A stretch of 58,837 nucleotides of DNA. Origin: a virus. A program made the translations under genes and the position numbers. This document shows positions 27,152 through 55,694 of the stretch, piece by piece. Where the stretch lies: positions 1 to 58,837 of the IMG/VR virus record IMGVR_UViG_3300028025_002566, one strand, 5' to 3'. The notes under the pieces were generated by a model. The model made no database searches and had not been told where the DNA came from. It was given only the letters and a program-made list of their open reading frames with translations. The stretch's first letter is position 1; each line of letters opens with the position of its first letter.

Positions 27152-30100
27152 ATGGATAGATTAGAAAAAGTATTATCAGATATTGGAATAGATGTTTCGT
27201 CTATCCCTAGAGCTTCTGACTTTAAAGTAGGTGAGAATACACTCAAAGATGCCGATACCTTTACTACTGCTGATGGTACACCAGTACGTATGAGAGGTAT
27301 TAATGCCGCAGAGACTTCAAAGGTAGATCCTTCAAGGGGTGCCTTTGAAGGATCTCAACCAGGTGCTGATACACAAACAAAGATTGTTGGAGACATTGCT
27401 CGTCAGGGTAATTTCACCACACCAATTGTTACTGAAGAGGTTGATAAATATAACCGTAGAATGGGTGATTTAGCTGACCCTTATGGTAACAAATTAACTA
27501 CCAAGCTATTAGAGATGGGTGTTGTTAATCCATCTTTAACTCCTACATTAGATCAAACTAATTCAATGTATTGGGGTAGAATTGATCGGCAACAGCGTAT
27601 TAATCAGGGCCGTAAAACTGAGGCTGATTTACTGCTAGATAAGCTTAATGAAGAAAGAAATCAATTTGGTGTACGTGCAAAAGTATTTACACCAGATGCT
27701 AAATCTTTTGGTGCTTCTGTAGATGATGCTGGTCGTAGTGATTATTTTGCTGGTCCAGCTATTGTCCGTGAAGGTGAAGATAGAACAGGTAAGGCTACAA
27801 GTAATTTATCTACAGGACTGGATATTGGCTTTGCCCAAATGCAACAAGGTTTATTTGGGGCTATTGATCTTATCGGTAAAACTACTGGATCAGAATTCTT
27901 AAGTAATGTAGGTACATCTAATGTGCGTGCATTAAAATCTGAGTTAGAATCATTACCGTATCTACGTAATGCTGAAGCTATTGATGAGAAAGGTAACTGG
28001 AAACTAGATAGTTTCAGTAAGTTAACTGACTATTTAGTTGGTACTGCTGCCTCATCTGCACCTCAAATGATTGTATCTTTAGCTTCTGCTTTTGCTGCTC
28101 CTGCTACTTTTGGTTTATCGTTATCAGCTCCTGCAGCTATCTATACAGGTAATGTATGGAACGAACAAAAAGAAAAGAACGCTGGTACCGCTTTAATCTC
28201 AGGTATTACACAAGCTGCATTAGATCGTTTAGGTATTGCTGGTTTAGTTAAAGCACCTAACCTAAACATCACATCTACAGCTACACAAGAATTAGTTAAA
28301 GCACAATTACTAAAGAAAGGTTTTAGTAAAGAAGCTGCTGAAGCTATGATTGTAAAAGCTACACAAGCGTCTGTTAAAGACGTAGCTGATGCTGCACGAA
28401 TTGTAGCTGCAAGACAACAGCTTGGCGCTCTTAATATTGGTAAAGCAGTTGGTATGGGTGCTGTATCTGAAGGCCCAACCGAAGGTCTACAAGAATTAGT
28501 ACAATACTTTGGTGAGACATCTAGTTTAAATGTACCTGAAGGCGAAGAGTATTCTAAGTTAAAGAACCGAGTACTTAATGCTACTGTAGGCGGTGCGTTA
28601 TTAGGTGGAACTATTGGTGGTACAGGTGCTGTTGCTCGTAACTTAACCTTCTCTGATAAAACAGTTAATCGGAGTAATGATGTCGAGTTCAGAGAACAGT
28701 TTAAAGGTAATGTTCCTTATGCAACTGAAGTAGCTAATGAGGCCTTTAATAGTAACCAAGAAGTTAGTTTAGATAAATTGGCCGAGGCTGAGGCTATTAA
28801 ACGATCTACTCAAGGTATCCCATCTAAGTTAAGTTCTTGGTGGGAAGATAAAGGTATTTCATCTCTATGGGATAAGTGGTCTAACACTATTATGGGTGAT
28901 AACGTTCATAAGAGTAAGTACACAGCTGCCTTAGCCACATTACTTGGTGCAGGTAATCCCCTTAATGGCTCATCTATTACTGATCAACAAGCACTATTAG
29001 AAACAAACATTCATAAGCATTTCGGTACCAAAGAAGAAATGGAATCTATGTTTAATGGTATGAATAGTAAGAATATTTCTATTCTATTATCTAACCCTAA
29101 AGTACTTGACTTAATGGAAAGACTTGTTCGTAGAAAGAAAGCTCAGTTTGCTGAGAACATGGATAATGTTGTAGGTAAGTTTGATCTTGATACTGAGCTA
29201 GGTGAATACGCACAATACAAAGATGGTATTGTTGAGTATGCTAATCGTATTGATAACCTAATTTCTACATATAACAATGCAACAAACAGTCAATTACGCT
29301 TTGACGATTTTGTTGAACAAAGACCATTAGATAAGACTGTTGTATCTAGATACTTTAAACAATTTGTTTCTGATCTATCTGATACATTAGGTTTATCTCA
29401 ACAAGAGGCAACTAAGATTGCTAACTCAGTACTCGATAACAATAACATTAACTCAATGGAAGATGCCTTAGATGACATCCTTAACTTTGATGTTGCATCT
29501 TTAAAGAATAAAGATGAGTTAGCCAAAAAGCTTTATACACCAGAAAATCGTGGTAAGTTCCAGAAATATTTTTCTCACGATATCGTAGACAATGCTTATA
29601 CATTATCTGCAAGAGGTGCTGCTAAGAATATTAATACAAATCTTATTGGTAAAGATGGTTCTAAGTTAGCTGCTTTAATTCAAGCTGCAAAAGATAATGG
29701 TGACATTACAGAACAAGAAGCCTCATTCATGGCTAAAGAGATTAAAGATTTCTTAGATATGCGTGCAGGTAAGTATCACCCCATAACTAATCCTTATGTT
29801 CGTGGTGCTTTAAGTACTGTTAACTTCTTATCTACTATTACTTCACTACCACTAGCTGCTATTAGTTCTACCGTAGAGTTTGCTCAGGTATATCGTAACC
29901 TAAATAAACCCCAATCTATTAAAGCTACTCGTATATTACTAAATACCTTTGGTAAAGAATTTGGTTCTTTGTTTAAAGAGTTAGGTGCATCGGTAACTAA
30001 CAAAGGTACTAAACCAGTAGAGCATAGGATTGCTTTATCTAATGCAGGGTATTTAAGAGAAGGTGGTATTGCTCACCGTAATGATATCATGTCTGGTTAT

Positions 30101-30940
30101 TTCCAGAAGTGGACAGAAGGTTTTTTTAAAGTCACTGGTTTGACTTCAATGACTACCATTACTCGTAATGCTAAGTTAGGTATTGCTGCAGATGCTATCA
30201 ATAGCTGGTTATCTATTGTTAAGTCAGGTGACCCAACAGATCAAGCAGTAATTGATGCCAAAGAACATTTAGTTCGATTAGGTATTGACTATGATTACAT
30301 GAATAATATTACTAAACATAGTATTGATTCAGAACAAAGAGTCTTAGACAACCTTCAAAGAGGTGCATACAACTTTATTAACGAAGCTGTGGTTATTCCT
30401 TCACAACTTAACAGACCTAAGTTCTACAGTGATCCTTACCTTAGATTGTTTACTCAATTCCAAGGCTACACATCTACTTTTACTGCTAACGTATTACCCA
30501 GATTAATTACTGATTTAAACCGTAAGGGTTCAGCAGATCAAGGTAATGCTGCAGCCACTATTGCTATGATGTTTGCTTTAGCTATGCTTGCTTTGTATAT
30601 TAAAGATATGATTAAGTATGGTGAATCACCACCTGAATGGCTCAAGGATGATAAGCAATTCCAAAGAGCTATTGGTCAAATGGGTATTTTAGGTACTGGT
30701 CAACGGGTATGGGATACAGTATCTGATATTACCGGAAACGATAAGTACAGTAAGACTGTTCTTGGCGATGTATATGAAAACATTTCTAATCAATCACCAC
30801 AACTAGCTTATATCAACAGGGTTAACTCAGCCCTCTCTGCCCAAGAAGGCAAAGAAATTGAGAAGGGTGCAAGGCTGCTTCCGATCTTCGGGACATCTCC
30901 CGCCTTTGCTAAATATCTTCAGAAAACACTCGGAGAGTAA
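27152..30940 (+). CDS. Large ejection protein with N-terminal staphylococcal-nuclease-like domain
   Basis: In 1262 residues, about 20-130 read as an SNase-type fold: LKDADTFTTADGTPVRMRGI, NAAETSK, then KYNRRMGDLADPYGNKLTTK and LLEMGVV. The Arg, Glu and second Arg expected near the active site are present. The long remainder is helical, with an apolar segment (ATIAMMFALAMLALYIKDM, about 1155) near the C-terminus. It is placed among ejection proteins. A virion-carried nuclease could act on host DNA or on periplasmic DNA. Catalysis is inferred. Confidence 0.72.
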   Translation: MDRLEKVLSDIGIDVSSIPRASDFKVGENTLKDADTFTTADGTPVRMRGINAAETSKVDPSRGAFEGSQPGADTQTKIVGDIARQGNFTTPIVTEEVDKYNRRMGDLADPYGNKLTTKLLEMGVVNPSLTPTLDQTNSMYWGRIDRQQRINQGRKTEADLLLDKLNEERNQFGVRAKVFTPDAKSFGASVDDAGRSDYFAGPAIVREGEDRTGKATSNLSTGLDIGFAQMQQGLFGAIDLIGKTTGSEFLSNVGTSNVRALKSELESLPYLRNAEAIDEKGNWKLDSFSKLTDYLVGTAASSAPQMIVSLASAFAAPATFGLSLSAPAAIYTGNVWNEQKEKNAGTALISGITQAALDRLGIAGLVKAPNLNITSTATQELVKAQLLKKGFSKEAAEAMIVKATQASVKDVADAARIVAARQQLGALNIGKAVGMGAVSEGPTEGLQELVQYFGETSSLNVPEGEEYSKLKNRVLNATVGGALLGGTIGGTGAVARNLTFSDKTVNRSNDVEFREQFKGNVPYATEVANEAFNSNQEVSLDKLAEAEAIKRSTQGIPSKLSSWWEDKGISSLWDKWSNTIMGDNVHKSKYTAALATLLGAGNPLNGSSITDQQALLETNIHKHFGTKEEMESMFNGMNSKNISILLSNPKVLDLMERLVRRKKAQFAENMDNVVGKFDLDTELGEYAQYKDGIVEYANRIDNLISTYNNATNSQLRFDDFVEQRPLDKTVVSRYFKQFVSDLSDTLGLSQQEATKIANSVLDNNNINSMEDALDDILNFDVASLKNKDELAKKLYTPENRGKFQKYFSHDIVDNAYTLSARGAAKNINTNLIGKDGSKLAALIQAAKDNGDITEQEASFMAKEIKDFLDMRAGKYHPITNPYVRGALSTVNFLSTITSLPLAAISSTVEFAQVYRNLNKPQSIKATRILLNTFGKEFGSLFKELGASVTNKGTKPVEHRIALSNAGYLREGGIAHRNDIMSGYFQKWTEGFFKVTGLTSMTTITRNAKLGIAADAINSWLSIVKSGDPTDQAVIDAKEHLVRLGIDYDYMNNITKHSIDSEQRVLDNLQRGAYNFINEAVVIPSQLNRPKFYSDPYLRLFTQFQGYTSTFTANVLPRLITDLNRKGSADQGNAAATIAMMFALAMLALYIKDMIKYGESPPEWLKDDKQFQRAIGQMGILGTGQRVWDTVSDITGNDKYSKTVLGDVYENISNQSPQLAYINRVNSALSAQEGKEIEKGARLLPIFGTSPAFAKYLQKTLGE

Positions 30941-34404: not shown

Positions 34405-34701
34405 TTATTTAACTGATAGTAATTGATTATACATATCTAGTGCTTGAGCACGATTAGCTCCTGCAACTTCTTTAGCTTCTTCTTCAGTATAAGGGCGACC
34501 TGTCATATCGTTAACGACATTAGGTAATCCTGATACAGATTGTTTGTAAATTTCATTCATCACATATGGACCAAGTTCTTTGGTGTATAGTAGTTCATCA
34601 GGAACATATACACCTACATCGCGCATATCTGCTTGGAATGTATGGTCATCATAATTATGACCGCGTAACGCTTGTACGTTATAGCTTTTTAACTGAGACA
34701 T
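34405..34701 (-). CDS. Hypothetical 98-aa protein, last gene of minus operon
   Basis: Begins MSQLKSYNVQALRGHNYDDH and contains GRPYTEEEAKEVAGANRAQA. Overlaps the Dps-like gene by 13 bases and stops directly at the shared terminator. Soluble and acidic. No family recognised; coupling to the Dps-like gene suggests a shared function. Confidence 0.7.
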   Translation of the reverse strand: MSQLKSYNVQALRGHNYDDHTFQADMRDVGVYVPDELLYTKELGPYVMNEIYKQSVSGLPNVVNDMTGRPYTEEEAKEVAGANRAQALDMYNQLLSVK

Positions 34702-35120
34702 GATTTAACCTTCCAATGTAACTTGGAGACACCTGTCATATAGTCTCCGATAAATGTTTCTAAGGCACCGTGACCTTCAGCACCTGCCTCTGTGTAAAGA
34801 ATTTGAGCAGACATGTGAATGCTATCCAGTGCTTTAGTCAAGTCATCTAGCATAGCCTTATCTGTTTTTGCTTTATTATCTAAAGTAAAGTTAGATTCTT
34901 CGGCATATTCTTTAAGACTAGTCATACACATGTTACCCATCTGACGACACTGTTCATTAAGGTCATCGTGGGCAGTGCTTAAATACTCATATACTTCCTG
35001 CAATAATGTATGGTACTGAGGGAAATTAGGACCGGTAATATTTAAATGATATACTTGTGACTTAAAGTATACAATAAAATTATCACTGATCAGTGTTTTT
35101 AGTTTGCTCTGGCAGCTCAT
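34689..35120 (-). CDS. Dps/ferritin-like protein
   Basis: In 143 residues, FKSQVYHLNITGPNFPQYHT (about 19-38) and HDDLNEQCRQMGN (about 51-63) follow the Dps pattern: HWNVxGxxF then DxxxERxxxLG. His in YHLNI, Asp in HDD and the Glu four residues later correspond to the Dps ferroxidase ligands. Dps proteins bind DNA and oxidise iron, protecting against peroxide. The long helices fit a four-helix bundle. It may protect phage DNA or be packaged, but this is inference. Start overlaps the upstream 48-aa gene. Confidence 0.7.
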   Translation of the reverse strand: MSCQSKLKTLISDNFIVYFKSQVYHLNITGPNFPQYHTLLQEVYEYLSTAHDDLNEQCRQMGNMCMTSLKEYAEESNFTLDNKAKTDKAMLDDLTKALDSIHMSAQILYTEAGAEGHGALETFIGDYMTGVSKLHWKVKSCLS

Positions 35121-36131: not shown

Positions 36132-36208
36132 TGGTATCTCGTAGTCGATTCGAACGACTGACCGACAACTTAGAAGGTTGTTGCTCTATCCAACTGAGCT
36201 AACGAGAT
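36132..36208 (-). tRNA. tRNA-Arg (TCT)
   Basis: Acceptor ATCTCGT/ACGAGAT, D-arm GCTC...GAGC, anticodon stem ACAAC/GTTGT with loop CTTCTAA (anticodon TCT, reads AGA/AGG), T-arm AGTCG/CGACT with TTCGAAT, A73 and an encoded CCA. 77 bases. AGA is a frequent Arg codon in this AT-rich phage and often rare in hosts. Confidence 0.93.
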
Positions 36209-36212
36209 ATAA

Positions 36213-36245
36213 GTTGCTCCCTTTATTTTACTATGCGGGAGCTAC
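36213..36245. other. Hairpin in tRNA spacer
   Basis: GTTGCTCCC and GGGAGCTAC pair over 8 of 9 positions around a 15-base AT-rich loop, between two tRNA genes. It may guide processing of the polycistronic tRNA transcript. The remaining spacer (36246-36293) shows no tRNA or ORF. Confidence 0.35.
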
Positions 36246-36293
36246 ATAGGACGCCTGTTCCGCAGACGACAACGGCACCTAAGGTAGGGTGTT

Positions 36294-36367
36294 TGGAAGC
36301 GGGTACTGGATTCGAACCAGTGATGCTGCGAGCTTATGAGACTGCAGTAGTGACCACCTTACCCGCT
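36294..36367 (-). tRNA. Atypical tRNA-like gene, anticodon CAT
   Basis: Acceptor AGCGGGT/ACCCGCT, T-arm ACTGG TTCGAAT CCAGT, T73 and an encoded CCA are perfect. The loop CTCATAA gives anticodon CAT (Met, or Ile if modified). The anticodon stem only forms with a bulged C, and the D-arm region (GGTGGTCACTA) is too short and does not fold normally. 74 bases. It may be a decaying tRNA or one with a specialised role. Confidence 0.6.
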
Positions 36368-36370
36368 ATT

Positions 36371-36447
36371 TGGTCTCAAGAACCGGACTCAAACCAATAA
36401 CCAATGAATTATGAGTTCACTGCTCTAACCAGTTAAGCTATCTTGAG
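36371..36447 (-). tRNA. tRNA-Met (CAT)
   Basis: Acceptor CTCAAGA/TCTTGAG, D-arm GCTT...GAGC, anticodon stem GTGAA/TTCAT with loop CTCATAA, T-arm ATTGG/CCGGT with TTTGAGT, A73 and an encoded CCA. Elongator Met or Ile2 (lysidine-modified) cannot be separated from sequence alone. Confidence 0.88.
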
Positions 36448-36453
36448 TGTTTT

Positions 36454-36529
36454 TGGCATACCCCGTAGGACTTGAACCTACAACCTGTAGATTTGGAATC
36501 CACTGCTCTGCCAATTGAGCTAGAGGCAC
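36454..36529 (-). tRNA. tRNA-Trp (CCA)
   Basis: Anticodon stem GTGGA/TCTAC with loop TTCCAAA, T-arm GTAGG/CCTAC with TTCAAGT, D-arm GCTC...GAGC, G73 and CCA. The acceptor pairs GTGCCTC with GGGGTAT through three G-U pairs, which is weaker than usual. Confidence 0.88.
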
Positions 36530-36538
36530 ATTTGTTTT

Positions 36539-36626
36539 TGGTGGATGCTCTTGGAATCGAACCAAGTGTGCTCCTTGGAGCGGAGGATTTACAATCCCCT
36601 GAAGTCACCAATGCTTCTCAACATCC
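36539..36626 (-). tRNA. tRNA-Tyr (GTA)
   Basis: 88 bases with a long variable arm (GCTCC/GGAGC), as in bacterial class II tRNA-Tyr. Acceptor GGATGTT/AGCATCC, anticodon stem GGGGA/TCCTC with loop TTGTAAA, T-arm CTTGG/CCAAG with TTCGATT, A73 and CCA. First gene after the promoter motif at 36630. Confidence 0.9.
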
Positions 36627-36657: not shown

Positions 36658-37635
36658 TTACTTAGTAATACTATCCCAAGACCAGTCACCTTCCATACCG
36701 TTAACTGAGTATTCAGTAACACGTTTCTCAAAGAAGTTATCGTGGGATACACCATTAAGAATCCAGTCTAGCCAAGTTAGTGGATTGTCTTTTACTTTGA
36801 AGTTAGTTTTAAGACCTAGTTGAAGCAATCTACGGTCGGTAATATACCGGATATACTGCTTGACATCTTCTTTAGTGATACCTTCAATATCATATTCAGC
36901 AAATGCTAAGTCAATGAAGTTATCTTCAAGACTTACCACATCACGGGCCATCTGATAGATCTTAGACTTGAATTCATCGTTAACTACTTTAAGATGTTCG
37001 TTACAAAACTCCCTGAATAGTCGTGAGTTACCTTCTACGTGTACAGTCTCATCTCGAATAGACCATTCAACAATAGTACTCATACCCTTCATCTTACCAA
37101 ACCGTTGTAGGTTAAGTAGCATAACAAAGGAAGCAAACAAAGATACACCTTCGTTTAGCACTGATTTAGCTAATGATAGAGCTAAACCAGACTGCGTTGA
37201 AGAGTCGGACCTTGCCATAAAGTCGATCTTGTCCGACATTTCTTTGTAGTCAAGGAACTTATGGAACTCTTCATCAGGTAAACCTAGTGTATCATTAAGC
37301 AAAGCATAAGCACGTTGATGAGTACCTTCACGACCAGCAAAGGAACCAAGCATTACTCGTACTTCATTGTTCTTAAACTTAGGGATTAAGTAGTCATAAT
37401 AGTTTTGCCCTACTTGTACGTCACCTTGAGTAAACAAACGAAGGATATTAGTAATAAAATCCTTTTCACTTTCTGTTAGTTTGATTTTCCAATCATTAAC
37501 ATCTTCAGATAAGTCAGCCTCATCCTCTGTCCAGTGGATTTCTTCGTGTTTCTTAGTAATCTCTACAGCCCACTCGTGATTAAATGGTTTGTAGGTTTTA
37601 GAAAAGTTTAGTAATGATGACATATTATCCTTCAC
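36658..37635 (-). CDS. nrdB: Ribonucleotide reductase class I, small subunit
   Basis: The 325-residue product has the ligand pattern of radical-bearing small subunits: TQGDVQVGQNYYDYL (first Asp), REGTHQRAY (Glu and His) and RDETVHVEGNSR (Glu and His). It generates the radical that lets the large subunit reduce ribonucleotides. It overlaps the large-subunit gene by 11 bases and follows it, as expected for a co-translated pair. Length is normal. Confidence 0.93.
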   Translation of the reverse strand: MKDNMSSLLNFSKTYKPFNHEWAVEITKKHEEIHWTEDEADLSEDVNDWKIKLTESEKDFITNILRLFTQGDVQVGQNYYDYLIPKFKNNEVRVMLGSFAGREGTHQRAYALLNDTLGLPDEEFHKFLDYKEMSDKIDFMARSDSSTQSGLALSLAKSVLNEGVSLFASFVMLLNLQRFGKMKGMSTIVEWSIRDETVHVEGNSRLFREFCNEHLKVVNDEFKSKIYQMARDVVSLEDNFIDLAFAEYDIEGITKEDVKQYIRYITDRRLLQLGLKTNFKVKDNPLTWLDWILNGVSHDNFFEKRVTEYSVNGMEGDWSWDSITK

Positions 37636-39619
37636 AAGCTTTACATTCGTTATCTTCTTCGCTCACTGTTCCGGACCCACTGTCTCGAAAGTGATTATAG
37701 AGTTCATTAAATCCTCCAATATACTTTCCGCTAAGATAGATTTGGGGTAGACTTCTGACATCAGGTCTTCCAGTGATTTCAGCCGCTGACTTACCTGTTG
37801 TAGTAATGTCAACATAGTCATATTGAATTCCTCTTGAGTCAAGGAGCGATTTAGCCATTGAGCATTGGGGACAGTTTGGTTTGCCATAGATAATTGTTTC
37901 TTTTACTTCAGTCAATTTGTTTTCTTCTACTTTTTCAGAGACATTCTCTGCTCGTTGTTTAGCTTCAGTACGTAAATAGTATAACCCTTTAAGACCTTTA
38001 TCCCAAGCAGCGTAGTGTACTGAATTAACGTATGCTCGATCAGAACCTGAAGGGAAAGCTAAGTTAACTGATTGACCTTGACACACATAGGATTGTCGAT
38101 CTGCTGCATGAGTAATAACCCAATGCTGGTCTAATTCAAAGAATGTTTTAAATACATCTTTTGTTTCTTTAGATAAATCTAAATGTTGAATACTACCTTT
38201 ATTAGTAATAATAGAAGACCAAACAGCTTCTGTGTTCATACCTAATGCATCCAGTTTCTTTTCAAGGTACTTATTTTTAACTAAGAAAGAACCTGCCCGT
38301 GTACGGTGTGTGTAGGCGTTAGCCTTATTAGGCTCGATACTAGGAGATGTACTTAAAAGAATACCCGAAGAAGCGTTAGGTGCAATAGCTAGTAAGTGAG
38401 CATTACGTTTACCACTACCAATCATATCAAGAGCTTCACCTCGATATTCACCTAACCAGAAAGTTTCTTTTTCAGCTTGCTGTTTAATCTTACTGAAGAT
38501 AGCAATGTTTTCTAGTCGCGATTTGTCAGATTCAAAAGGAATCCCGTGACGTTGTAGGTATTCATGAAACCCCATAGCACCAAGGCCAATAGATCTCTCA
38601 TGAATAGCTGAGTACTTTGCCCGTGATAAGCTATCAGGTGCGTTCTCAATGAAGTACTCAAGTACGTTATCAAGCATACGTACAAGATCCTCAATCATAT
38701 GAGTGTTCTTCCATACATCATAGTATTCTAAATTAACTGAGGACAAGCAGCATACCGCTGTTCGATCATCGGATGTTGGTAGGTGAATCTCATTGCAAAG
38801 ATTACTACCATAAATCTTAAGACCTTTACTTTTTAGTTCTTCAGGTAAAGCTTCATTAGCTGTATCAATAAAATTTAAGTAAGGCTCACCAGTACGGAAA
38901 CGAGTTTCAAGTAGCTTAGCCCAGACAGTACGTGCATCTAAGAATTCACCTGTATTACCTACCTTAGGGTCAATCAATTCGTACTTACTACCTGTTTTAA
39001 CCGCTTCCATAAATTTGTCTGAGATATTAACAGCGTTATGTAGGTTAAAGCACTTGCGGTTAGTATCTCCTGTAGGAATACGTAGACCAATGAACTCAAG
39101 AATATCAGGATGCTCAATGTTAAGGTAAGCAGCATAAGAACCTTTCCTTGTTTTACCTTGTCGGTAAGCAGTCATATCAGCATCTACTGTATGCAAGAAT
39201 GGAATAGGACCGGGTGCTACATCAGATACTGAACGAACATCAGACCAGTGACCACCAACACCACCACCCATAACTGACAACCAACGTAGTTCAGATGAGT
39301 GATCAATTAAACCTTGTACGGTATCAGGTACATAGGTTAAGAAGCAACTGATAGGTAATCCCTTAGCCTTTTGACCGTCAATAGGTGCGTTAGATAGCAC
39401 AGGTGAGGCAAACATAAACCATTTATTAGATACATAATCATATAAACGCTGTGCTAAATCTTCATCACGTACACCTTTGTATACACTCCAAGCCCATACT
39501 GCCCGTGCAAACACATCTTGAGGTGATGTTTCACCTTCCTTAGCATAGAAATCCATGATCATATCTACAGCATAATCTGTTAGTAAGTTATCACGTACAT
39601 ACTCAATTTTAATGTTCAT
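37625..39619 (-). CDS. nrdA: Ribonucleotide reductase class I, large subunit with internal glutaredoxin domain
   Basis: Residues 1-565 hold the catalytic barrel: NLCNEIHLP (active Cys), CCLSSVNLEYYDVW (redox Cys), and NASSGILLSTSPSIEPNKAN. From about 574 a complete glutaredoxin follows, with active site KPNCPQCS (Cys583, Cys586), RSLPQIYL and GGFNELY. The last residues, NECKACEG (Cys659, Cys662), look like the redox-active C-terminal tail of RNR large subunits. The 664-residue length is thus explained by an inserted reductant domain. ATP-cone is not evident. A promoter motif lies 17 bases upstream of the ATG. Confidence 0.93.
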   Translation of the reverse strand: MNIKIEYVRDNLLTDYAVDMIMDFYAKEGETSPQDVFARAVWAWSVYKGVRDEDLAQRLYDYVSNKWFMFASPVLSNAPIDGQKAKGLPISCFLTYVPDTVQGLIDHSSELRWLSVMGGGVGGHWSDVRSVSDVAPGPIPFLHTVDADMTAYRQGKTRKGSYAAYLNIEHPDILEFIGLRIPTGDTNRKCFNLHNAVNISDKFMEAVKTGSKYELIDPKVGNTGEFLDARTVWAKLLETRFRTGEPYLNFIDTANEALPEELKSKGLKIYGSNLCNEIHLPTSDDRTAVCCLSSVNLEYYDVWKNTHMIEDLVRMLDNVLEYFIENAPDSLSRAKYSAIHERSIGLGAMGFHEYLQRHGIPFESDKSRLENIAIFSKIKQQAEKETFWLGEYRGEALDMIGSGKRNAHLLAIAPNASSGILLSTSPSIEPNKANAYTHRTRAGSFLVKNKYLEKKLDALGMNTEAVWSSIITNKGSIQHLDLSKETKDVFKTFFELDQHWVITHAADRQSYVCQGQSVNLAFPSGSDRAYVNSVHYAAWDKGLKGLYYLRTEAKQRAENVSEKVEENKLTEVKETIIYGKPNCPQCSMAKSLLDSRGIQYDYVDITTTGKSAAEITGRPDVRSLPQIYLSGKYIGGFNELYNHFRDSGSGTVSEEDNECKACEG

Positions 39620-43627: not shown

Positions 43628-43786
43628 TTAGTTCCAGTATTCTTGATCTTCTTTTAACTCACGTATAGTTCGCCTACGTTCTTTGGCTTGCTTCTGTGTT
43701 TGTTTCTTTTGTTTGTATTGTTGTTCAAACTCTTGTTTAAAGTTAATGTACTCTTCAATATCTTTAGGTTGATTATGCTTCTTCAT
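43628..43786 (-). CDS. 52-aa highly charged protein
   Basis: Reads MKKHNQPKDIEEYINFKQEF and continues in a Gln/Lys/Arg helix (KQAKERRRTIRELKEDQEY). Overlaps the GIY-YIG gene end by 14 bases, 1 base before the primase. Likely a small helical binding protein; function unknown. Confidence 0.65.
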   Translation of the reverse strand: MKKHNQPKDIEEYINFKQEFEQQYKQKKQTQKQAKERRRTIRELKEDQEYWN

Positions 43787-44204
43787 AACTCTTAGGTTTT
43801 AAAAACTTGACGGCTCCAATGTTGCCATTGTACCAGACACGCTTTCCATTAGGTAGTTCATCTCGTGATAAGACTTCACATTGCCATTGCTCATGCACTT
43901 CGCTGTATGTAAGATCTCCGGGACCAACGCACCATTTGTAGATAACAAATGTAAAAGCTTCAGATCCGTAGAGTTTAATATCATCAAGGAGTTCTCGGCA
44001 ACTTGATAGGTATGTGCGCCAATCAGACTCCTTGCGTGTGACAGTACGGCGGCTTGCTCCGGGCTTAAGTTTTCTTGAGACACTTATTAGTTGCTTTCTT
44101 CCAATGTATCGTCTTCCTGTTTCAAGGTTTTCGATGTAGTAGATGAATCCAAAGGCATTGTCTGGTCTGTCTGTGAGAGGGTACCAGTGTCCGTAGTCTT
44201 CCAT
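43773..44204 (-). CDS. Seg-like GIY-YIG endonuclease
   Basis: 143 residues. The N-terminal catalytic block is FGFIYYIENLETGRRYIGRK (about 18-37; Tyr, Tyr and Arg of GIY-YIG). The conserved tail includes DWRTYLSSCRELLDDIKLYG and YNGNIGAVKF, as in Seg-type homing endonucleases (PF19835). Its first 39 codons, containing the whole GIY-YIG motif, lie in another frame over the 3-prime end of the exonuclease gene. It may be an intron-less homing enzyme or a nuclease recruited for host DNA degradation. Confidence 0.82.
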   Translation of the reverse strand: MEDYGHWYPLTDRPDNAFGFIYYIENLETGRRYIGRKQLISVSRKLKPGASRRTVTRKESDWRTYLSSCRELLDDIKLYGSEAFTFVIYKWCVGPGDLTYSEVHEQWQCEVLSRDELPNGKRVWYNGNIGAVKFLKPKSYEEA

Positions 44205-48867: not shown

Positions 48868-49746
48868 TTACATGTCGATGGTGTCACGGAAACCTAAGAA
48901 GATAGGGTGCCGTGGTTTATCTTTTACTCCGATAGGGAAGTGTTTGTACTTAACAATATATCCAAGCAGACTTGATTTATTTTTCCAGAAGTTATCCCTA
49001 TCTGATTGGTCAAAACCTGAACCAATTTTAAATTCAACTCCGTCACGGGTTTTACAGATGAATGCTCCGAGAGTTCCTTTCCCAGACATACCAGATAATT
49101 TAGTTGATCGTTTAGTTCTTCCGAGTTCATTAGTTTCTGCGTCATTTCCATTGTGCATCTCCTCTTCCCAACCAATAATAACAGCTTCATCATCCTCAAA
49201 ACGTTTAAGTTTAAAAGCGTTAGCTTCCTTCATAGTACAACGACCGTACTTATACTTACCATGTGGGTTACGAATAACAACACCTTCATAACCTTTTTCT
49301 AGGCAATGTTCTTCAAGCTCCAATAATCGTTCCTTATTATGGGCAGAATATGATAGTACCTTACGATAGTTAGGCGGCACATCATCAATACCTAAATCAA
49401 AGTACCTTGTGTTATAGGTGTTTACAGTATCATCCCACCAGTCAAAGTGGTAGAAAAAGAATTCACTTTCTTTATCATGAGCCATAACAAAAGAGTTAGT
49501 ATCTCGATACACTGTTGGTGAAGTAGGATTACCTACAATAAGTTCACCATCCATACCTTCTAACTCATCACCCCAAAATGCAGCCCATTTCTGGATGGAT
49601 TTATTAGGGATAGGCTTGAGAGTACGTGATAGTGCTACACCATTCTCAAACAATACTCGGATACCATCTAGCTTAGGTGTAACATAGACTGGGTAGTCAA
49701 TTGCATCTAAGTCAGGTGTTTCGCGGGGTAATAGCATTGGTTTCAT
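48868..49746 (-). CDS. ATP-dependent DNA ligase
   Basis: In 292 residues, the nucleotidyl-transferase motif I is TPKLDGIRV (lysine about 28), followed by GMDGELIVG (motif III), GYEGVVIRNP (motif IV) and AFKLKRFEDDEAVIIGW (motifs V). The C-terminal OB domain is short. It seals Okazaki fragments and nicks. Size fits the minimal phage ligases such as T7 gp1.3 (359). Confidence 0.94.
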   Translation of the reverse strand: MKPMLLPRETPDLDAIDYPVYVTPKLDGIRVLFENGVALSRTLKPIPNKSIQKWAAFWGDELEGMDGELIVGNPTSPTVYRDTNSFVMAHDKESEFFFYHFDWWDDTVNTYNTRYFDLGIDDVPPNYRKVLSYSAHNKERLLELEEHCLEKGYEGVVIRNPHGKYKYGRCTMKEANAFKLKRFEDDEAVIIGWEEEMHNGNDAETNELGRTKRSTKLSGMSGKGTLGAFICKTRDGVEFKIGSGFDQSDRDNFWKNKSSLLGYIVKYKHFPIGVKDKPRHPIFLGFRDTIDM

Positions 49747-54530: not shown

Positions 54531-54658
54531 AAAGCACTTAAGATCATATTGATACCTTGGACAACTTGCATTTGTTGCATTGCATGAAGCTCATGCCAAG
54601 GTTTCCAGTTAGGAAAGTGTGGTTGTAAACGTACCCAGAAACGTTCTACATCAGTCAT
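54527..54658 (-). CDS. 43-aa protein
   Basis: Reads MTDVERFWVRLQPHFPNWKP and ends QVVQGINMILSAL. Overlaps the RNA ligase end by 8 bases and the next gene by 4. Trp-rich N-terminus. Function unknown. Confidence 0.6.
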   Translation of the reverse strand: MTDVERFWVRLQPHFPNWKPWHELHAMQQMQVVQGINMILSAL

Positions 54659-55694
54659 TTTTCAGTAACCAAGAGTTAGAGATAGATTTGAAAGATTTGG
54701 ATGGATCAGTTAGGTTTTTGAATACAAGTCCTTCACGTTTTGCTTTGGGATTAAGCATTGATTGACCTTCTGCAAAGGTTAGCAGTTCAGATACAGTAGT
54801 ACGGTTATCAGTCTCATAGTCAGCGAATGTAGGTGTATGCTTAATACCTAGTGCTTCACAGATAAATTGCCTACGCCGTGGTGAGTAGTATTCTTGTTTA
54901 TCAATATCAAAGATATCAAACACATAGAATTCAGCCTCAGATAGGTTATAAGCGTTACCTTGAATACCGGGACCGATAAGCTCACCTTGAATGGCTACAT
55001 TAATATTATGTAGGTTAAGCTTTTCATGGATACGTAGCTTTATAGTTGTACTTACAAAGGAATTGTCAGTATCTTCCATTTTAAGTTCGTAGTTACGGGA
55101 ACATACACCCATATGCGTTTCACCGTTAACTGTATTACGGAACACAGTCATTGATGAGCCATCAAGCTTTTCAGTAACTTCCCACACTTGTAAACCTTGT
55201 AGGTTTTCTAAAGTACGACCGTAGTTTTGGATACGTTCTTGATCAGTTTTAGGGATAAATGAAGGGAAATTACCTGCTAGTTTACCTGCGAGTTGTGCTG
55301 GAATAACAGGTTCCCATTTGAGAATATTTAAATATTCAGTTACATCAGTACCTGCAACTGGGTTTTCAAAGTCATGTGTTAGTACTGATTCTCTTGGTAG
55401 CGCTAAACCTTGGCTAATTTGACCTTTAAGTTTAATAGTACGTAGACGTTCACCCTTTACACCTTGGTATTCACGAGGCTCTTTACCTTTAGATAGGAAT
55501 GGTGCAAGTTCTGTGGGAATCCACGAGTCGATTTCAAAGTAAACGCATAGATCGCCTACATTGAATTCACCTTTTTTAATAACAACTTCCCAACCATCGA
55601 TAACAGCAACTTCAATTAGGTCGGCATTCTCGATAGGTTTTAGTTGGGAAATTACTCGGATAGTGGCTAGTTTACGATCAGACATCGAAGGCAT
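54651..55694 (-). CDS. ATP-dependent RNA ligase (DraRnl / Rnl5-like)
   Basis: In 347 residues, an N-terminal domain (about 1-110, including ENADLIEVAVIDGWEVVIKK and RTIKLKGQISQGLALP) precedes the nucleotidyl-transferase core: TEKLDGSSMTVFR (motif I lysine about 177), IQGELIGPGIQGN (motif III-like) and REGLVFKNL (motif IV). This order, OB-like part first, matches the Deinococcus RNA ligase family. It would seal broken RNA, for example tRNAs cut by host anticodon nucleases. Genes for five tRNAs are in the same genome. Confidence 0.88.
   Translation of the reverse strand: MPSMSDRKLATIRVISQLKPIENADLIEVAVIDGWEVVIKKGEFNVGDLCVYFEIDSWIPTELAPFLSKGKEPREYQGVKGERLRTIKLKGQISQGLALPRESVLTHDFENPVAGTDVTEYLNILKWEPVIPAQLAGKLAGNFPSFIPKTDQERIQNYGRTLENLQGLQVWEVTEKLDGSSMTVFRNTVNGETHMGVCSRNYELKMEDTDNSFVSTTIKLRIHEKLNLHNINVAIQGELIGPGIQGNAYNLSEAEFYVFDIFDIDKQEYYSPRRRQFICEALGIKHTPTFADYETDNRTTVSELLTFAEGQSMLNPKAKREGLVFKNLTDPSKSFKSISNSWLLKND

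Follow-up and report, generated by a model that had tools for sequence, protein, structure and literature searches.

Genome setting of the giant virion-type gene

The window, a stretch of 58,837 nucleotides taken from an IMG/VR virus record, encodes terminase, portal, scaffold, major head and tail proteins and a single-subunit RNA polymerase and, judged by this gene content, is a podovirus-type genome. The long open reading frame described in an earlier note on this DNA was found as reported, and the features within and next to it are listed in Table 1. Thirteen loci in IMG/VR encode relatives of the 1262-residue product, with 42-86% identity.

Other genes were identified in the window. These include a ferritin-like (Dps-type) protein adjoining the structural block (34689-35120, minus strand; PHROG 'DNA binding protein'), four tRNA genes (36132-36626), a ribonucleotide reductase large chain carrying a C-terminal glutaredoxin domain in a single ORF (37625-39619, minus strand), a SegE-type GIY-YIG nuclease (43773-44204, minus strand), both a DNA-ligase-type and an RNA-ligase-type protein (48868-49746 and 54651-55694, minus strand) and a Lar-type restriction-alleviation domain (PF14354; 53289-53837, minus strand).

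Table 1. Features of the giant virion-type gene and of the two ORFs that flank it (window coordinates)
Feature	Position	Strand	Evidence or remarks
Preceding ORF, 1039 aa	24020..27139	+	PHROGs 873 and 7182; match to PDB 9vvp 'Gp29'
Giant virion-type protein ORF	27152..30940	+	ATG start, 1262 aa; SNase domain, then helical linker, then PaP3-orf19-like body
SNase-like domain, residues ~28-125	27233..27526	+	Pfam and PDB profile matches; predicted fold
D33-A34-D35-T36, equivalent to SNase D19, G20, D21, T22	27248..27259	+	D33 and D35 in 55/55 relatives; T36 in 53/55
R46, equivalent to catalytic R35	27287..27289	+	55/55; aligned to staphylococcal nuclease R35 via profile A6
N51, at the Ca2+ ligand D40, substituted	27302..27304	+	N 23, D 20, S 8, E 4 of 55
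E54, equivalent to catalytic E43	27311..27313	+	55/55
R102, equivalent to catalytic R87	27455..27457	+	55/55
Helical linker, residues ~133-169	27548..27658	+	AlphaFold2 helices H133-151 and H157-169
Body, residues ~217-1262	27800..30937	+	Homologous to PaP3 orf19 (hhalign 99.1%, E 1e-18)
C-terminal core, residues 822-1182	29615..30697	+	PHROG 6958 'virion structural protein', E 9.6e-34
Following ORF, 1136 aa	30944..34354	+	Adjoins the SNase protein in relatives too; no family match

A divergent SNase domain at the N-terminus

The earlier note had proposed that the protein begins with a staphylococcal-nuclease-like (SNase-like) domain. The window sequence by itself did not bear this out in the Pfam domain search: the full-length protein gave no match, and its alignment to PF00565 scored 13.4 bits (E 0.1), below the Pfam cut-off of 21 bits. 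The homology surfaced only with broader profiles, single-sequence searches being misleading for this protein. A homologue (L027) passed the same cut-off with 23.3 bits (E 9e-5), and PF00565 was matched at E <= 0.1 by 14 of 36 diverse members of the family. When family profiles were compared with the PDB, one of 13 sequences did not retrieve the S. aureus nuclease, one of 15 sequences (A3) retrieved it at E 1.7e-3 and one of 36 sequences (A6) at E 2.2e-7, which is significant homology at the level of the family. Among the PDB matches listed for A6, all 60 are named thermonuclease, staphylococcal nuclease or nuclease A. A phmmer search of the PDB with the window protein returned kinesins only, which we judged to be chance matches.

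Structure prediction agreed with the proposal. The AlphaFold2 model of residues 1-193 is of moderate confidence (pLDDT 78), and its best PDB matches in Foldseek are SND1 and staphylococcal nuclease (probability 1.00, E about 1e-4 to 1e-3), the TM score to the latter being 0.51-0.58 when normalised by the length of staphylococcal nuclease. On the strength of the L027 match, the two broader profiles and the predicted fold, residues ~28-125 are a divergent SNase domain.

Catalytic residues and selection

The roles of R35, R87 and E43 in staphylococcal nuclease have been described (PMC8436206), and HMMER alignments pair these residues and the DxDT motif directly with the family. As many of the loci are near-duplicates, residues were counted after redundancy had been removed (95% cut), which left 55 relatives. 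The catalytic arginines and glutamate, whose loss had been named as a sign against a nuclease, are retained at R46, E54 and R102 in every one of them, and so is the metal ligand D21 (D35 in the window protein). In an alignment of 36 sequences with a mean column identity of 32%, the only invariant columns are the equivalents of D19, D21, T22, R35, E43 and R87. An alignment of 15 sequences has eight invariant columns, and their random placement would cover all five of the D19, D21, R35, E43 and R87 positions with a probability of 2e-7, a figure that is indicative only, neighbouring columns and related sequences not being independent. That the equivalents of the catalytic set, with T22, are the sole invariant columns among 36 diverse relatives is the pattern an enzyme would show, and the domain probably has nuclease activity.

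The domain is under purifying selection, with dN/dS values of 0.02-0.19 in 12 pairs and similar values in the body. The second Ca2+ ligand of the canonical staphylococcal-type nuclease (D40) is missing from the window protein, where N51 takes its place.

The body of the protein and its neighbours

The remainder of the protein had been likened to the ejected protein gp16 of T7. The fusion of the SNase domain to a giant virion-type protein holds, but the likeness to gp16 does not extend to the sequence: no homology to T7 gp16 was detectable (hhalign probability 0.3%), and the match was instead to orf19 of phage PaP3, starting near residue 217 and covering ~820 profile columns. This profile homology makes the other ~1050 residues a virion protein of the PaP3 orf19 type, from a group (PHROG 6958) assigned to the category 'head and packaging'. 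Two hydrophobic segments lie in the C-terminal core (residues 886-904 and 1132-1150). The AlphaFold2 model of the body is all-helical and poor (pLDDT 50), and it gave no fold match among solved structures. The corresponding proteins of PaP3, KIT05 and 1.262.O begin past the SNase and linker part and are without the SNase domain; the SNase profile found no match in PaP3.

The body is still comparable to T7 gp16 in its size, in the helix content predicted for it, in where its gene lies and in having hydrophobic segments towards the C-terminus. Each of the two proteins has an enzyme domain at its N-terminus and a predicted role in genome entry (PMC8954989), but that of gp16 is a peptidoglycan transglycosylase whereas the window protein has an SNase there instead. 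The transglycosylase-like domain sits in the preceding ORF, not in the SNase protein, and this ORF is likely, from its sequence, to encode a partner in the ejection apparatus. It contains two tandem endolysin/transglycosylase-like 'NNPGNL' domains (residues ~190-296 and ~385-490).

The neighbourhood of structural genes is syntenic among the relatives. We infer the location in the virion from the PHROG and PaP3 annotations, and the SNase protein is predicted to be ejected by its homology to an annotated virion protein, its gene position and its general build.

Distribution of the fusion

When relatives were sought with only the C-terminal core as the query, 130 were recovered, and 79 loci were kept. 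The SNase domain is present in 59 of the 60 examined proteins whose 5' end lies inside the contig; the fusion is thus kept throughout the family. In the sole exception (L121) the DGDT and RLRG motifs occur upstream in a different frame. The motifs and the body of this locus are out of frame around positions 1643-2553, which is not so in its close relative L122, and this is consistent with a frameshift or an assembly error.

No relative was confirmed in bacterial genomes, and a tblastn search of named phages with the N-terminal domains of two family members (L033 and L005) gave no match. A search with the C-terminal part of L033 reached the one cultured case found, gp34 of roseophage (Roseobacter phage) CRP-7, a protein of 1368 aa annotated as 'hypothetical protein'. 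It resembles the window protein in architecture, gene order and an SNase domain with all catalytic residues, but it keeps D40 and the identity is only about 25-30%. The description of CRP-7 presents it as a new podovirus group, and the word 'nuclease' is absent from it (PMC6918029). A match in BFVD (A0A646QXC0, 1368 aa) is probably this same protein. Going by database name and length, a second BFVD match, the UniProt entry A0A6J5NQ80 of an uncultured Caudovirales phage (1342 aa, automatically named 'Staphylococcal nuclease (SNase-like), OB-fold'), may also belong to the SNase-fusion family.

Proposed role and alternative explanations

We consider it likely that the gene encodes a virion-packaged protein of the PaP3 orf19 type which carries a catalytically competent SNase domain and is deployed at genome entry. 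The homology of the body to a phage virion protein and the synteny with a giant ORF bearing peptidoglycan hydrolase domains support this explanation. Against it stand the replacement of D40 in the window and in 35 of the 55 relatives, a topology borrowed from T7 without homology to gp16, and the danger that an active nuclease would pose beside the packaged genome if uncontrolled. The SNase domain would be packaged next to the phage DNA and held inactive, or apart from that DNA, while in the particle. The protein would then leave the capsid with the genome, and the domain, becoming active in the envelope or the cell at the start of infection, would cut DNA or RNA lying outside the protection of the phage's own DNA channel.

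The earlier note had suggested that host DNA is cut immediately or that DNA is degraded in the periplasm, and both are plausible. SNases are typically extracellular and activated by Ca2+, and Ca2+ is available in the periplasm. By analogy we lean tentatively, at somewhat less than even chances, towards a domain facing the envelope (periplasm), since that is where T7 gp16 has its N-terminal enzyme and since Ca2+ activates SNases. Once T7 gp16 has been ejected, this enzyme ends up in the periplasm, and gp16-C is assigned to the cytoplasm (PMC8954989).

Delivery to the cytoplasm against host DNA ranks after the periplasmic placement and seems to us possible but unlikely. The same grade applies to its fuller form, in which the nuclease would serve early host-DNA breakdown and replace a missing endonuclease I of the T7 type. 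In favour of this, endonuclease I (PF05367) is matched in three SNase-less relatives, KIT05, 1.262.O and PaP3 (the last below cut-off), whereas eight SNase-bearing records gave no match. The idea is weakened because the SegE-type gene has the mirror distribution and could equally explain the loss, being present in 8/8 SNase-bearing records and in 0/3 SNase-less relatives, a contrast that lies between clades, involves few independent lineages, may reflect one event and includes records that may be fragments. Moreover, if the topology were like that of T7, the N-terminus would lie in the periplasm (PMC8954989).

It is improbable, in our opinion, that the SNase fold is non-catalytic and serves, as a nucleic-acid binder, to hold the leading end of the DNA or, as an assembly domain, to attach the protein to a partner. 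There is a precedent for an inactive fold of this kind in Tudor-SN proteins, which include SNase-fold domains without activity. The loss of the D40 ligand in most relatives fits such a role, as does the risk of keeping a nuclease beside the genome (PMC9026906). A binder would not, however, be expected to hold D21, R35, E43 and R87 at 100% with the rest at about 20-30% identity, and 20 of the 55 relatives, CRP-7 included, retain D40. Least probable is a protein exposed on the exterior of the tail whose nuclease clears extracellular DNA at the host surface: the gene does close the block of tail genes and SNases are generally extracellular, Ca2+-activated enzymes, but PHROG 6958 belongs to the category 'head and packaging', and an internal, ejected protein agrees better with the size, the helix content and the hydrophobic segments in the C-terminal part.

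Self-protection and relation to known systems

In T4 an engineered fusion of staphylococcal nuclease to an internal protein is packaged and can be switched on inside the head; when Ca2+ is added, it destroys the DNA there (PMC9026906; see also PMC7697877). That IPIII fusion is likewise an SNase-fold nuclease placed in the head on an injected protein (PMC9026906), but it is artificial, whereas the fusion described here occurs in nature, has diverged and is maintained throughout a lineage. If their packaged domain is active, the SNase-bearing phages must solve the same problem of self-protection. One candidate device is the D40 position with its varying residue, although it cannot be the sole solution because 20 of the 55 relatives keep the aspartate; sequestration in an internal core is another candidate. 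Taken to its full extent, the proposal would be that an aquatic podovirus lineage packages a nuclease beside its own genome and keeps it safe either by sequestration or through an altered calcium site (most members have N, S or E at D40). Only after ejection would the nuclease, facing the periplasm, fire at DNA outside the phage's channel, for example DNA of competing phages. We regard this complete picture as speculative and rather doubtful.

The window protein shares with the SNase superfamily (PF00565; S. aureus nuclease and the SN domains of SND1) the fold, the DxDT motif and the catalytic R35, E43 and R87, and differs from its members in being fused to a giant phage virion protein and in having N at D40. 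Virion-borne nuclease effectors have been proposed in general for polyvalent proteins (ParB-like, PBECR, 2H; PMC5512222). Such injected effectors are similar in being packaged in the virion with nuclease-type domains (ParB-like DNases, PBECR RNases), but no SNase is described among them and their fusions are to MuF or portal protein rather than, as here, to an ejection-type protein (PMC5512222). Ejection proteins bearing enzymes are already known (PMC8954989, PMC11440229); the enzyme domains described on them cut peptidoglycan. No description of an SNase-ejection protein fusion was found in the open-licence papers searched, which is weak evidence of absence.

A large and mostly uncultured group of short-tailed phages thus appears to carry an SNase-type domain on a giant virion protein that is predicted to be ejected. 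This raises the question of how phages can carry a nuclease safely beside their genome and of what is cut on entry. With CRP-7 and its cultured host, these questions are directly testable.
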